Positions 1,425 through 5,817 of a stretch of 36,802 bases of DNA are shown piece by piece. The position numbers and the translations under genes were made by a program. The stretch is taken from NCBI GenBank assembly GCA_021442665.1, contig JABUSQ010000158.1, forward strand, positions 1 to 36,802, written 5' to 3'. Each line of letters starts with the position of its first letter. Within the stretch, counting starts at the first letter, position 1. Source of the DNA: Oscillospiraceae bacterium. Its GTDB lineage: Bacteria > Bacillota > Clostridia > Oscillospirales > Oscillospiraceae. The notes under the pieces are model-generated. The model saw only the letters and a program-made list of their open reading frames with translations. It had not been told where the DNA came from and did no database searches.

Positions 1425-1453
1425 ATTATAATATAAATTGACGGAAAAAACAA
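1425..1453 (-). promoter_or_regulatory. Promoter of the small membrane protein
   Basis: On the minus strand TTGTTT (1448-1453), 17 bp, then a consensus TATAAT (1425-1430). It overlaps the divergent promoter at 1438-1466. Confidence 0.6.
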
Positions 1454-1466
1454 TTCGTGTTAGATT
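1438..1466 (+). promoter_or_regulatory. Promoter of the corrinoid methyl-transfer operon
   Basis: TTGACG (1438-1443), 17 bp, TAGATT (1461-1466), about 30 bp ahead of the first gene. The -35 region interleaves with that of the minus-strand promoter, so RNA polymerase probably cannot occupy both at once. Confidence 0.55.
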
Positions 1467-1495
1467 ATTTACAGATAAAATTTGTGAGGTAAGCT

Positions 1496-2677
1496 ATGAA
1501 CGCAAAAGAATTAAAGGCGGGCAGGATAGCTCTGTTCAGAGACGCCGCCGCCTTCAGGCCAACGGAGAGAATACCCTATTTCTCCTCGGCGGTCACATGG
1601 AAGATATTCGACGCAGGACACACACTGGACGAGGCCATGACGGATTTCGGGATCATGGAGGAGTGTGTGCGTCATTTTCTGGATACTTATCCCGTGGACG
1701 GACTTCTGGATACGGGCATCCGCAACCAGTTTAATGTAACCGAGGCCTTCGGCGGGGGCGGATATTATTACTACACCCCCGACGCCGTGGGCATACACGA
1801 TCATGCTCACTGCACCGTGGACACGCTGGAGGATTACCTTAAGGACCCGGAGAGATACATATGGGAGACGGTGCTGCCGAAAAAATACGGCGAGGCCTGG
1901 GGACAGAAAACCAGGGAGATTTGGAAAAAGACCTTTAAGGAGTACATGGCGTACACGAAATTTGTCATTCACATGGCAAATGTCACGGGCAAGGAGTACG
2001 GTATACCCGGGCTGGCTCCCAATAACCCCATGAAAGGTGCCATCCAGTTCGGCATCGAGGAGCTGGAGGCAAATCTTCTGGGCATAAAGCAGCTCTCCAT
2101 CGCCATGCGCAGGAATGCCGACCTTATCGAGAGTTTCTGCCGCAGCTGGGATGCAGAGCACATAGACCCCGTCGTGGAAAAGGTGCTGAGCGGCAACGGC
2201 CCCGACAGGAAATACTGCTTTGACGCGTCCTTAATGATGCTGGCGCACAATATCACGGGACCGAAGCAGTTCGAGCGCTTCTACTGGCCGAGCCTGAAGA
2301 AGCTGCTGGACGCCTACGCCGAAAAGGGCATGAGCGTGCGTATCTTCGCCGAGGGCAGCATAGGAAGATATGCGGATTACTTCAAGGATTATCCCAAGGG
2401 CGTCATAACCCTGCATCTTGAGCAGGATGACCCCTTCGAGATCCGTGAAAAGCTCCCCAACATAGCAATCATGGGCGGCATGACCACGGATATGCTGGCA
2501 AATGCAAGCCCGGAGGACTGCGTCGCCTATGCGAAGCGGCTCTGCGACGAGCTGGGAAGAGAGGGCGGCTTCATCTTCAGCGAAAACAAGATGTTGTCCT
2601 ACCGCAACGACGCAAGGGCAGAAAATCTTGCGGCTGTGACGGAATTCGTGAGCGGCTACCGCCCTGAGAGGAGTTAA
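1496..2677 (+). CDS. UroD-family corrinoid-linked methyltransferase (probable methyl-donor side)
   Basis: A 393-residue soluble protein of the uroporphyrinogen decarboxylase/MtaA superfamily, a TIM-barrel group that includes MtaA, MtbA and CmuA. It lies directly ahead of a corrinoid protein, a homocysteine methyltransferase and a corrinoid reactivase, so it is a methyltransferase and not a haem-pathway decarboxylase. Family features include the N-terminal region with RPTERIP (residues 21-27), and an FAEGS segment (284-288). Thiol-methylating members carry a zinc motif H-x-C plus a later Cys; here the equivalent position reads H307-L-E309 and the later region reads SENKM, so that site is absent. 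I infer that it takes the methyl group from a substrate and passes it to the corrinoid protein. The substrate is unknown. The start has GAGGT 5 bp upstream. Confidence 0.8.
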   Translation: MNAKELKAGRIALFRDAAAFRPTERIPYFSSAVTWKIFDAGHTLDEAMTDFGIMEECVRHFLDTYPVDGLLDTGIRNQFNVTEAFGGGGYYYYTPDAVGIHDHAHCTVDTLEDYLKDPERYIWETVLPKKYGEAWGQKTREIWKKTFKEYMAYTKFVIHMANVTGKEYGIPGLAPNNPMKGAIQFGIEELEANLLGIKQLSIAMRRNADLIESFCRSWDAEHIDPVVEKVLSGNGPDRKYCFDASLMMLAHNITGPKQFERFYWPSLKKLLDAYAEKGMSVRIFAEGSIGRYADYFKDYPKGVITLHLEQDDPFEIREKLPNIAIMGGMTTDMLANASPEDCVAYAKRLCDELGREGGFIFSENKMLSYRNDARAENLAAVTEFVSGYRPERS

Positions 2678-2680
2678 GCT

Positions 2681-2809
2681 ATGGAGAATAAATATACATC
2701 CTATCCCGAGGGATACAACAGACTGGTGAGGGACATCGTGCCCTTTTATATGCGCCCTGCAAAGAAGATGCTCATGCGCCTTCTGCTGACCATACTCACC
2801 GACGGCTGA
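2681..2809 (+). CDS. 42-residue protein inside the methyl-transfer operon, unknown
   Basis: The ATG lies 3 bp after the methyltransferase stop and is preceded by GAGAGGAG, a good ribosome binding site; the stop is 13 bp before the corrinoid protein start. The peptide has an aromatic/charged first half (KYTSYPEGYNRLVRD) and a basic, Leu/Met-rich second half (KKMLMRLLLTILTDG) that could be an amphipathic helix. It has no Cys and no signal peptide. Position and ribosome binding site argue that it is translated. It might be a small subunit or an interface peptide for the methyltransferase-corrinoid complex; that is inference. I know of no named family. Confidence 0.6.
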   Translation: MENKYTSYPEGYNRLVRDIVPFYMRPAKKMLMRLLLTILTDG

Positions 2810-2822
2810 GAGGAGAATGAAA

Positions 2823-3452
2823 ATGGATTATAACGAGATAAAGACCGCAATGCAGGAGCTGGACGAGGATACTCTGCTGGCGCTTATGAGGAAGGTCATT
2901 TCCGGCGGAGCCGACGCAATGGAGGCTGTGCGCGCCTGTCAGGAGGGTATGGAGGCCGTGGGTCAGCTCTTCGAGGACGGGGAATATTTCGTGGGTGACC
3001 TCATCTACGCCGGAGAGATACTCACCGACGCTCTTGAGATAATAAAGCCCGCTCTCTCCGAGGGCGAGGGAGGAAGTCTGGGCAGAATGCTTATCTGCAC
3101 CGTGCGTGACGATCTCCACGACATCGGCAAGAACATAGTGAAGAGTCTGCTGGAGGCGGGCGGCTTCGAGGTACTGGATCTGGGCGTTGACGCAGCCCCG
3201 GAGAAGATAGTTGAGACCGCAAAGAGCGAGGGTATCGGCATCATCGCCCTCAGCGGCGTTCTGACCCTTGCGCTGGAGTCCATGAAGGATACCGTCCGGG
3301 CATTCTGCGATGCGGGTCTGCGCGAGAACGTGAAGATAATCATAGGCGGAGCGCCGGTGAATGAGAATTCCGCGAAGACCGTGGGAGCCGACGCTTGGGC
3401 AAGCAGTCCCCAGAGGACGGTTTCCATATGCAGAGAGTGGGCAGGAGGCTGA
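2823..3452 (+). CDS. Corrinoid (B12-binding) methyl-carrier protein
   Basis: A 209-residue protein with the two-domain layout of free-standing methyl carriers such as MtaC/MtbC/MtvC. An N-terminal helical cap (residues about 1-85, with the V-G-x-L-F-E-D-G-E-Y-F segment) is followed by a Rossmann-like cobalamin domain. The cobalt-ligand motif D-x-H-x-x-G is present as D97-L-H99-D-I-G102, with the downstream LSGVLT (143-148) and IIGGAPV (173-179) segments that cradle the nucleotide tail. It shuttles the methyl group between the UroD-family enzyme and the homocysteine methyltransferase. The ATG at 2823 is preferred over the ATG at 2817 because AGGAG (2811-2815) is 7 bp from the former and only 1 bp from the latter. 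Confidence 0.92.
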   Translation: MDYNEIKTAMQELDEDTLLALMRKVISGGADAMEAVRACQEGMEAVGQLFEDGEYFVGDLIYAGEILTDALEIIKPALSEGEGGSLGRMLICTVRDDLHDIGKNIVKSLLEAGGFEVLDLGVDAAPEKIVETAKSEGIGIIALSGVLTLALESMKDTVRAFCDAGLRENVKIIIGGAPVNENSAKTVGADAWASSPQRTVSICREWAGG

Positions 3453-3453
3453 A

Positions 3454-4263
3454 ATGATACATTTACTTGACGGCTCCGCAGGCACAGCCCTGTGGGCTAT
3501 GGCAGAGGCTGCGGGAGTTAAGAAAAAATCCGTGTGGCTGTATAATATCGAGCAGCCCGAATTCGTCACCGAGCTTCACCGCCGCTATATCGAGGCGGGC
3601 AGCGAGCTGATACAGGCCAACACCTTCAGCGTAAACCGGTTTTCCGTGGAGCGGGAATCGGAGCTCAGCGCCGCCGAGGTGGTCACCGCCGCGGTTAAGC
3701 TGGCAAAGCAGGCAGCGGAGGGAACCGGGGTCAGGGTCTACGCCACCTTCGGACCTCTGCCCATACTCATGGAGCCCTACGGGAAGCTCAGCATTGCCGA
3801 GACCGAGGCGGCATACACGGAGCTTGCCTCCGCCGCCGCGGAAGCGGGCGCGGATATCATCGTGCTGGAGACCTTCATGGATCTGCGCATGATGGAGGTG
3901 GCTGCCAAAGCCGCAAAGAGCTTCGGCCTGCCCGTGTTCTGCTCCATGACCTTTGCCAAGCGTCACCGCACCATGATGGGCGACACCGTGAAGAAGATAG
4001 CTCAGTCTCTGGAGACCATAGGCGCAGACGCCGTGGGCATGAACTGCTCGGCAGGCCCCGTGGAGGCGCTGGAGATCATCCGTGAGTTTAAGGAGAATAC
4101 CGCTCTGCCCCTGTACTTCAAGCCCAACTCCGGCATGGGCGAAAGCTACGGCGCTGATCAGTTTGCCTCAGAGATAGCTCCCGCTCTGGAGTTTGTATCC
4201 TATGTGGGCGGCTGCTGCGGCTGTGACGAGGAATATATAAAGGAGATAAAAAAGCTCCTGTGA
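3454..4263 (+). CDS. Homocysteine S-methyltransferase, stand-alone MetH-type module
   Basis: A 269-residue protein that matches only the first module of cobalamin-dependent methionine synthase (or a BhmT/MmuM-type homocysteine methyltransferase). It shows the DGSAGT start (residues 6-11), QANTF (54-58), ETF-x-DL (139-144) and the three zinc-binding cysteines that activate homocysteine: C198 in GMNCSAGP, and C254/C255 in GGCCGC. There is no folate-binding, B12-binding or activation domain. It should transfer methyl from the neighbouring corrinoid protein to homocysteine, giving methionine. AGGAGG (3443-3448) lies 5 bp ahead of the ATG, which follows the previous stop by one base. An unusual acceptor other than homocysteine cannot be excluded. 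Confidence 0.88.
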   Translation: MIHLLDGSAGTALWAMAEAAGVKKKSVWLYNIEQPEFVTELHRRYIEAGSELIQANTFSVNRFSVERESELSAAEVVTAAVKLAKQAAEGTGVRVYATFGPLPILMEPYGKLSIAETEAAYTELASAAAEAGADIIVLETFMDLRMMEVAAKAAKSFGLPVFCSMTFAKRHRTMMGDTVKKIAQSLETIGADAVGMNCSAGPVEALEIIREFKENTALPLYFKPNSGMGESYGADQFASEIAPALEFVSYVGGCCGCDEEYIKEIKKLL

Positions 4264-5750
4264 GTGTTTTTTCGGTTAAGGTGCACTGCGGAGGCGGGGA
4301 GCTTCTGCTGTGCGCCGGGGAAGATAAGAGCATATTGGAGCTTCTCACCGCCGCATCCGTCATCGTTGACGCACCCTGCGGAGGCAGAGGGACCTGCGGC
4401 AAATGCAGCGTGGAGCTCAGAGGAGCGGTGCGGAGCAGGGACAGCGGAGAGACGGTACAGGCGGAGGGCAGGCTTCACGCCTGCCGCTTTATCCCCGCAG
4501 GGGACTGCGAGCTATGGCTTGACACCGAAGGCGAGGCGAGGATAGTCCTGCCGGATGCCGTGAGGACAGACGGCGGAGGCGAGGGTCTGGGGCTTGCCGT
4601 GGATATAGGCACCACCACAGTGGCGGCGGCTCTGTACGACCTTGCCACCGGGGAATGCATCGCCGAAAAGAGCGAGCGCAATGCCCAGAGAAGCTTCGGC
4701 GCCGATGTCGTGAGCCGCATGGAGCATTGCAGAAGGGGAAGCTTTACGGAGCTTGCGGAGGCGACCCGGACACAGCTTGCGGCACTGTTTGAGGACAGAG
4801 AGGGCATACGCCGTGTGGCACTGGTGGGAAACACCGTGATGCAGCATCTGGCGTGGGGTCTTGACCCCTCGGACATGGCTGTCCCGCCCTTCAGACCCAA
4901 AAGCCTTTTTGGCTTCAGTGCAGGCTCGGAGCTGTGGCAGGACGCCGAGGTATATCTTGCACCCTGCGTATCCGCGTATGTGGGAGGAGACGTGCCTGCG
5001 GGCATGCTGGCCTGCGGCATGGACAGCGCAGAGGGCCTGTGGCTGTATGTGGATATCGGCACCAACGGAGAGATGGCTCTGGGCGATAAAAACGGCTATG
5101 TCACCTGCGCAACAGCGGCAGGGCCTGCCTTCGAGGGCGCTGAGATAGCCTGCGGAATGATCGCCGCCGAGGGAGCCGTGGACAGAGTATGGTGCGAGGG
5201 CACTGAGCTTTTTGCCCACGTAATCGGCGGGGGAGAGGCGAAGGGCATCTGCGGCAGCGGACTTATCGACGCTGCTGCCGCCATGCTGCGGCTGGGCGTG
5301 CTTGACCGCAGAGGACGGCTCCTTGATGAGGAAAAAGCACCCGTACAGCTGCGGCGCAGATTTATCCGGCATGATGGCGTGAGAGCCTTTGTCCTCCGGG
5401 ACGGGGTCTTCGTCACCGCTAAGGACATACGGAAGATACAGCTTGCCAAGGCAGCCATAAGAGGCGGCATAGAGACACTGCTTCAGGGGCGAGTACCCGA
5501 CGGTGTGGTCATCGCAGGGGGCTTCGGAAGCTATATCGACGTGAGAAACGCCGTGGAGATAGGTCTGCTGCCCCCCATACCCGTAAGCCTTGTCCGTCAG
5601 GCGGGAAACGCCGCAGCCAAGGGGGCGGCGATGCTTCTGAACGACGGCACTGCCGAAAGACTGAAGGCTCTGACGGAAAGCTGCAGCTACCTTGATCTTT
5701 CCTCTTCAAAGGAGTTTTCCGACAGCTATATTTCCTATCTGGACTTCTGA
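4260..5750 (+). CDS. [2Fe-2S] corrinoid-protein reactivase (RamA/RACo-like, ASKHA fold)
   Basis: A 496-residue protein predicted to reduce accidentally oxidised Co(II) corrinoid back to Co(I) using ATP. The N-terminal ferredoxin-like domain has plant-type cluster ligands C40-x5-C46-x2-C49 and C75. From about residue 108 the actin-like ATPase domain begins with GLAVDIGTTT; a second glycine-rich phosphate-binding segment (YVDIGTNGEMAL) follows near residue 262. This architecture is that of RACo and related reductive activators of corrinoid proteins in acetogens; the present protein is somewhat shorter than typical members, which have a linker domain. Translation starts at a GTG overlapping the TGA of the upstream gene (GTGA), so the two are coupled. 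A terminator follows at 5770. Confidence 0.9.
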   Translation: MSVFSVKVHCGGGELLLCAGEDKSILELLTAASVIVDAPCGGRGTCGKCSVELRGAVRSRDSGETVQAEGRLHACRFIPAGDCELWLDTEGEARIVLPDAVRTDGGGEGLGLAVDIGTTTVAAALYDLATGECIAEKSERNAQRSFGADVVSRMEHCRRGSFTELAEATRTQLAALFEDREGIRRVALVGNTVMQHLAWGLDPSDMAVPPFRPKSLFGFSAGSELWQDAEVYLAPCVSAYVGGDVPAGMLACGMDSAEGLWLYVDIGTNGEMALGDKNGYVTCATAAGPAFEGAEIACGMIAAEGAVDRVWCEGTELFAHVIGGGEAKGICGSGLIDAAAAMLRLGVLDRRGRLLDEEKAPVQLRRRFIRHDGVRAFVLRDGVFVTAKDIRKIQLAKAAIRGGIETLLQGRVPDGVVIAGGFGSYIDVRNAVEIGLLPPIPVSLVRQAGNAAAKGAAMLLNDGTAERLKALTESCSYLDLSSSKEFSDSYISYLDF

Positions 5751-5769: not shown

Positions 5770-5799
5770 ACTGACAGCTTCAAAAGCTGTCAGTTTTTT
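5770..5799 (+). terminator. Terminator of the methyl-transfer operon
   Basis: An 11-bp perfect stem (5770-5780 with 5784-5794), 3-nt loop and a T6 tract. Confidence 0.9.
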
Positions 5800-5817
5800 A
5801 ATTAACAGAAATAAGCA

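Follow-up and report, generated by a model that had tools for sequence, protein, structure and literature searches.

A corrinoid demethylase-like operon with a homocysteine methyltransferase as a candidate folate-free split methionine synthase in an Oscillospiraceae bacterium

The window analysed here is a stretch of 36,802 nucleotides (nt) from an Oscillospiraceae bacterium (contig JABUSQ010000158.1 of assembly GCA_021442665.1); it is contig C4 of a metagenome-assembled genome (MAG) of 1.85 Mb in 213 contigs, which is about 96% complete. On its forward strand, positions 1496-5750 hold five intact open reading frames (ORFs) that encode, in this order, a UroD-superfamily methyltransferase, a microprotein, a corrinoid protein, a homocysteine S-methyltransferase (HMT) and a reactivase. 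The genes are closely packed, with a gap of 1 nt between the corrinoid and HMT genes and an overlap of 4 nt between the HMT and reactivase genes. An earlier note, made from the letters alone, had named these families, their order and their packing, and both the ORFs and the Pfam matches agree with it. The promoter and terminator that it placed on either side were also recovered, both as consensus matches only: a sigma-70-like site with an extended -10 (TTGACG-17-TAGATT, 1438-1466, +) and an intrinsic-terminator-like hairpin of 11 pairs followed by a T-run (5770-5804, +). Rfam gave neither a riboswitch nor a T-box in the window.

The first gene (1496-2677, +) encodes a protein of 393 amino acids (aa) that matches Pfam URO-D at 7e-10 and is the putative MT1, which would pass a methyl group from a donor to the corrinoid protein. 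With a family profile built from 16 relatives, the PDB matches were confined to a single family, CdmB (E 7e-15), the zinc-free chloromethane methyltransferase of Acetobacterium (PMC13222342). The AlphaFold model showed a UroD fold (pLDDT 86), and its structural matches include UROD and a methyltransferase of M. mazei (4ay8). The HxC motif, which is half of the His-Cys-Cys zinc site of the thiol type, is missing from the window protein and from 15 of the 16 relatives; the sole match, near the N-terminus of the protein at locus L116, lies away from the zinc site. Genes for MFS-type transporters and a molybdenum hydroxylase accompany several clusters of a 40%-identical UroD clade, a hint that the donors may be methylated ring compounds from plants or the diet. 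Genes of these two types are missing from the window operon.

The corrinoid protein (2823-3452, +; 209 aa) is a stand-alone protein of the demethylase type with B12-binding and cap domains (Pfam B12-binding 2e-21, B12-binding_2 1e-13) and a DxHxxG motif at residues 97-102. Its nearest solved structure is 4jgi (E 2e-54), and it is the only PF02607 match in the window genome. In a tree of corrinoid proteins it clusters with those of UroD demethylase clusters, apart from those of split MetH systems, the deep branches being uncertain. The last gene (4260-5750, +) has a GTG start that overlaps the HMT stop codon and encodes a [2Fe-2S]/ASKHA corrinoid reductive activase of the RACo type (496 aa; Pfam RACo_C_ter 2e-65, Raco_middle 2e-36, weak Fer2). 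It carries C40-x5-C46-x2-C49, and its nearest solved structure is 3zyy.

Between these two genes lies that of the HMT (3454-4263, +), a stand-alone MetH-type enzyme of 269 aa and the putative MT2, which matches PF02574 (S-methyl_trans) at 4e-52 and is the sole PF02574 match in the genome. The cysteines singled out in the earlier note, Cys198, Cys254 and Cys255, are confirmed, and in its MNCS and GGCCG segments the protein aligns with MetH of T. maritima. The latter is also the best match among solved structures, far ahead of BHMT and of 5dml, a homocysteine S-methyltransferase that likewise stands alone. A tree built from 39 HMT domains places the window protein among stand-alone HMTs, in a clade supported at 100/99 and separate from MetH fusions and from a second HMT type of about 405 aa. 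Each genome represented in this clade encodes a stand-alone corrinoid protein, and some also carry stand-alone pterin methyltransferase and methylenetetrahydrofolate reductase (MTHFR) genes, which amounts to a fully split MetH. Since the HMT groups with split-MetH-type HMTs, and the corrinoid protein with UroD demethylase clusters, the operon is, judged by sequence, a hybrid that joins a demethylase to an acceptor module of the split-MetH kind. PF02574 also takes in MmuM- and BHMT-like enzymes, and the nearest stand-alone HMTs are mostly not adjacent to a corrinoid gene; the HMT might accordingly need no partner protein and take its methyl group from a small molecule, for example S-methylmethionine or betaine, its gene being only co-transcribed with those of the demethylase. 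We consider this improbable, because the sequence is nearest to the HMT domains of MetH, the genomes of the clade each encode a stand-alone corrinoid protein, and the HMT, besides being closely packed with its neighbours here, is also grouped with UroD, corrinoid or reactivase genes in lineages separate from this one.

The history of this hybrid can be approached through its relatives, whose loci were found by a scan with the UroD alignment; a contig scan of other genomes with the HMT alone gave no confirmed relative. The sister species G399 (JAUMWD010000005) has the UroD protein (86%), the microprotein (100%) and the corrinoid protein (78%), plus a reactivase. No HMT lies between its corrinoid and reactivase genes or elsewhere in its genome, and its one pterin methyltransferase and one MTHFR are encoded side by side at another site, the AOR locus. 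The outgroup cluster L116 comprises the UroD protein (70%), the microprotein (60%), a pterin methyltransferase and the corrinoid protein (62%), followed directly by the reactivase. A pterin methyltransferase gene also stands inside the cluster at L122, L123, L127, L128 and L130. The expectation that relatives would carry no such gene in or near their clusters is therefore contradicted, with L116 having it within the cluster and G399 elsewhere in the genome. A widespread five-gene order was likewise rejected, since none of the clusters at 21 UroD loci includes an HMT gene; only remnants of an HMT were found in G102, and none in G400. Because the corrinoid gene adjoins the reactivase gene in L116 and in G399 with no HMT, the HMT was probably inserted between them in the window lineage. 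From these gene orders, the ancestral family appears to be folate-linked and the window operon a derived acceptor change, and the simplest history would start from a folate-linked demethylase whose pterin module disappeared and into which an HMT gene was inserted in the window lineage.

The second gene (2681-2809, +) encodes the 'YPEG' microprotein of 42 aa. An ORF of 41-53 aa with a YPEG-like start follows the UroD gene, directly or after a short gap, in 20 of the 20 loci inspected (L113-L131, L133). Between the window and G399, 16 of the 42 codons of the microprotein gene differ, all of them synonymously and none nonsynonymously; the UroD gene carries 127 synonymous and 56 nonsynonymous codon changes. 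As every change is synonymous, the microprotein gene must be real and strongly constrained. Neither Pfam nor NCBIfam gives a match for it, and its model contains two predicted helices at low confidence. This is a previously undescribed family that adjoins every inspected UroD methyltransferase gene of the clade, and its position and codon constraint make it a probable partner of the UroD protein.

Family searches of the window genome detected no PF00809 (pterin-binding), PF02219 (MTHFR) or PF01717 (MetE) match, no second PF02574 match and no MetH, so that within detection every folate-linked route tested is absent. We therefore read the operon as a split, folate-free, B12-dependent methionine synthase derived from a demethylase, and put the probability of this reading at roughly 0.6. 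The five proteins would act together in one direction. The UroD protein, probably with the microprotein, would transfer a methyl group from a donor CH3-X to the corrinoid protein in its Co(I) state; the HMT, with zinc held by Cys198, Cys254 and Cys255, would pass it from methyl-Co(III) to homocysteine as the acceptor, yielding methionine; and the reactivase would spend ATP to re-reduce Co(II). A folate-free split synthase had been proposed in the earlier note, and for this genome the absence of PF00809, PF02219 and PF01717 speaks for it; as a conserved five-gene system the proposal did not hold.

Several observations weigh against this reading. The genome is a MAG in 213 contigs, and the PF00809 search can overlook members: at least one divergent pterin protein, in G403, escaped it, and this protein itself scores 1e-7 in Pfam. 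The exact five-gene order, for which other genomes were searched, was found in none of those examined and is thus known from one MAG only. No LuxS was detected in the window genome (SAH, or S-adenosylhomocysteine, hydrolase was not searched for), and for cystathionine-synthase-type enzymes a single match, weak and partial (E 7e-5), was all that appeared; G399 encodes both LuxS and a cystathionine-synthase-type protein. That no homocysteine source of these types was detected would also suit a chain run in reverse, in which the corrinoid protein would receive its methyl group from methionine and the UroD protein would hand it on to a small acceptor. The UroD superfamily does include acceptor-side coenzyme M methyltransferases (PMC10418091). 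This family, however, lies nearest to CdmB, a donor-side enzyme, and is without the HxC of the thiol-type zinc site. In MetH chemistry, moreover, the equilibrium is on the methionine side, and a reversed chain seems very improbable to us.

Since the PF00809 search is not fully sensitive, a second method was applied, in which the pterin and MTHFR proteins of G399, joined with its AOR protein, served as the query. In the window genome it found AOR-type matches only; in G401-G403 the same query does recover pterin proteins, with 62-64% identity. The AOR orthologue lies on an unbroken contig, C88, which carries a DcyD-like gene where G399 has the pterin and MTHFR genes. With this syntenic site intact and occupied, the absence of the two genes is not simply a contig break. 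The window ends on its left at a DivIVA-like gene, and in G399 this gene has the pterin and MTHFR genes close by; a placement of both just past that edge was rejected because C88 is without them. These results bear directly on the alternative that the operon is an ordinary folate-linked demethylase of the Odm/Cdm kind, whose pterin methyltransferase gene lies at another site and escaped the assembly, the HMT being a side branch. Such an arrangement has precedents, since the relatives described above use a pterin methyltransferase within the cluster or elsewhere, and in MtgBCDE of Ruegeria folate and homocysteine branches share one corrinoid protein (PMC12478193). It is nevertheless unlikely given that two methods find neither a pterin-binding protein nor MTHFR, that the syntenic site holds another gene, and that G397, G398, G400 and G102 of the same genus are likewise without PF00809. 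The folate-free reading is thus well supported for the window genome. The lack of pterin and MTHFR genes in G186 was not used as evidence, as its congeners G223, G199 and G171 have both and it may be a MAG gap. Across the genus, five of six genomes (G000, G397, G398, G400 and G102) have no PF00809 match; since not even dihydropteroate synthase was detected by this search, they are probable folate auxotrophs.

Among known systems, the three-part split MetH with a RamA-like reactivase of Phaeobacter inhibens (PMC5764234) shares the stand-alone HMT, the corrinoid protein and a DUF4445/RACo-type reactivase, but it has a pterin-binding subunit, uses methyl-tetrahydrofolate and has no UroD protein. 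In the window the homocysteine module with its three Cys ligands is present, whereas the pterin module and MTHFR were not found. Like the proposed operon, MtgBCDE of Ruegeria pomeroyi joins donor demethylation to methionine on one corrinoid protein through a stand-alone HMT, MtgE; it differs in its donor enzyme for glycine betaine, MtgB (PF06253), in an essential folate subunit, MtgD, and in belonging to aerobic proteobacteria (PMC12478193). The donor enzyme here is URO-D and not PF06253, a result that covers the operon only. The CdmBCA chloromethane dehalogenase and the Odm, Vdm and Mtv O-demethylases (PMC13222342) share a UroD-superfamily donor enzyme, a related corrinoid protein and the reactivase logic, but their acceptor is a folate methyltransferase (MtqA-like) and they have no HMT; the window operon also combines UroD, corrinoid and activase genes, while a folate methyltransferase was found neither in the operon nor in the genome. 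The core methionine synthases MesA-MesD (PMC7857596) are folate-free as well, with MesA-C probably fed by corrinoid proteins, but they are of the MetE fold (PF01717, not found in the window genome), and their predicted donors are CoFeSP or MtrA. Type 1 mlp clusters share UroD proteins, a corrinoid protein and a reactivase, and methyl recycling to methionine has been proposed for them; they differ in having two or three UroD proteins (Mlp2, Mlp3) with His-Cys-Cys zinc sites, and the available part of that source describes no HMT in the cluster (PMC10418091). They require at least two UroD genes, and the window operon has one.

The B12-dependent MetH-type synthases described in the literature consulted take their methyl group from folate, whereas the known folate-free ones are of the MetE fold, and no methionine synthase built of UroD, corrinoid and HMT proteins was found in the open literature searched (subscription literature being outside the scope). 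We give even odds to a stronger form of our reading, in which an acceptor switch from folate to homocysteine made this operon the only methionine synthase of the cell, of the PF02574 type, fed by UroD and with the microprotein as an obligate subunit. The arrangement suggests that a MetH-type acceptor domain can join a catabolic demethylase, and that a folate-poor, gut-type anaerobe could obtain its methionine by way of a methylated compound supplied by the diet or the host. Pathway tools that require MetH, MetE or MTHFR would label such an organism a methionine auxotroph.

If the reading is true, UroD, corrinoid and HMT clusters in other genomes would represent the same switch made more than once. 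In G397 and G398, of the same genus, a UroD::corrinoid fusion has an HMT of the 405-aa type and a reactivase as neighbours, and neither genome gives a PF00809 match; G313 has an independent UroD-corrinoid-UroD-HMT cluster. Loci with the fusion, HMT and reactivase were recorded at L111 (4984-10008, also with a DUF2284 gene) and L112 (5406-10501), and these clusters are possibly a second folate-free methionine synthase. A UroD-corrinoid-UroD-HMT operon was seen at L067 (9526-12700) in another family of the order, in an 85% complete MAG with no PF00809 or MTHFR match. At L161, a 401-aa HMT similar to the 405-aa type adjoins a LuxS-like gene.

The genes 3' of the operon (a GntR regulator, a transporter and two ketopantoate-reductase-like proteins) have no conserved counterparts in G399 and were not counted as part of the system. 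Clusters of MTHFR, two ETF-like proteins and a pterin methyltransferase were noted at L101 (6467-9978), L103 (6073-9601) and L116 (4834-7456), the last with ETF-alpha and an MTHFR-like domain in a single ORF. On the other side of the operon, a membrane protein of about 159 aa with no Pfam family (907-1386, -) is a conserved neighbour of the UroD gene. Its homologue at L124 is weak and its orientation varies in the close clade; UroD-adjacent homologues occur at L113 (459-935), L114 (1834-2328), L115 (2190-2663) and L116 (4297-4806).

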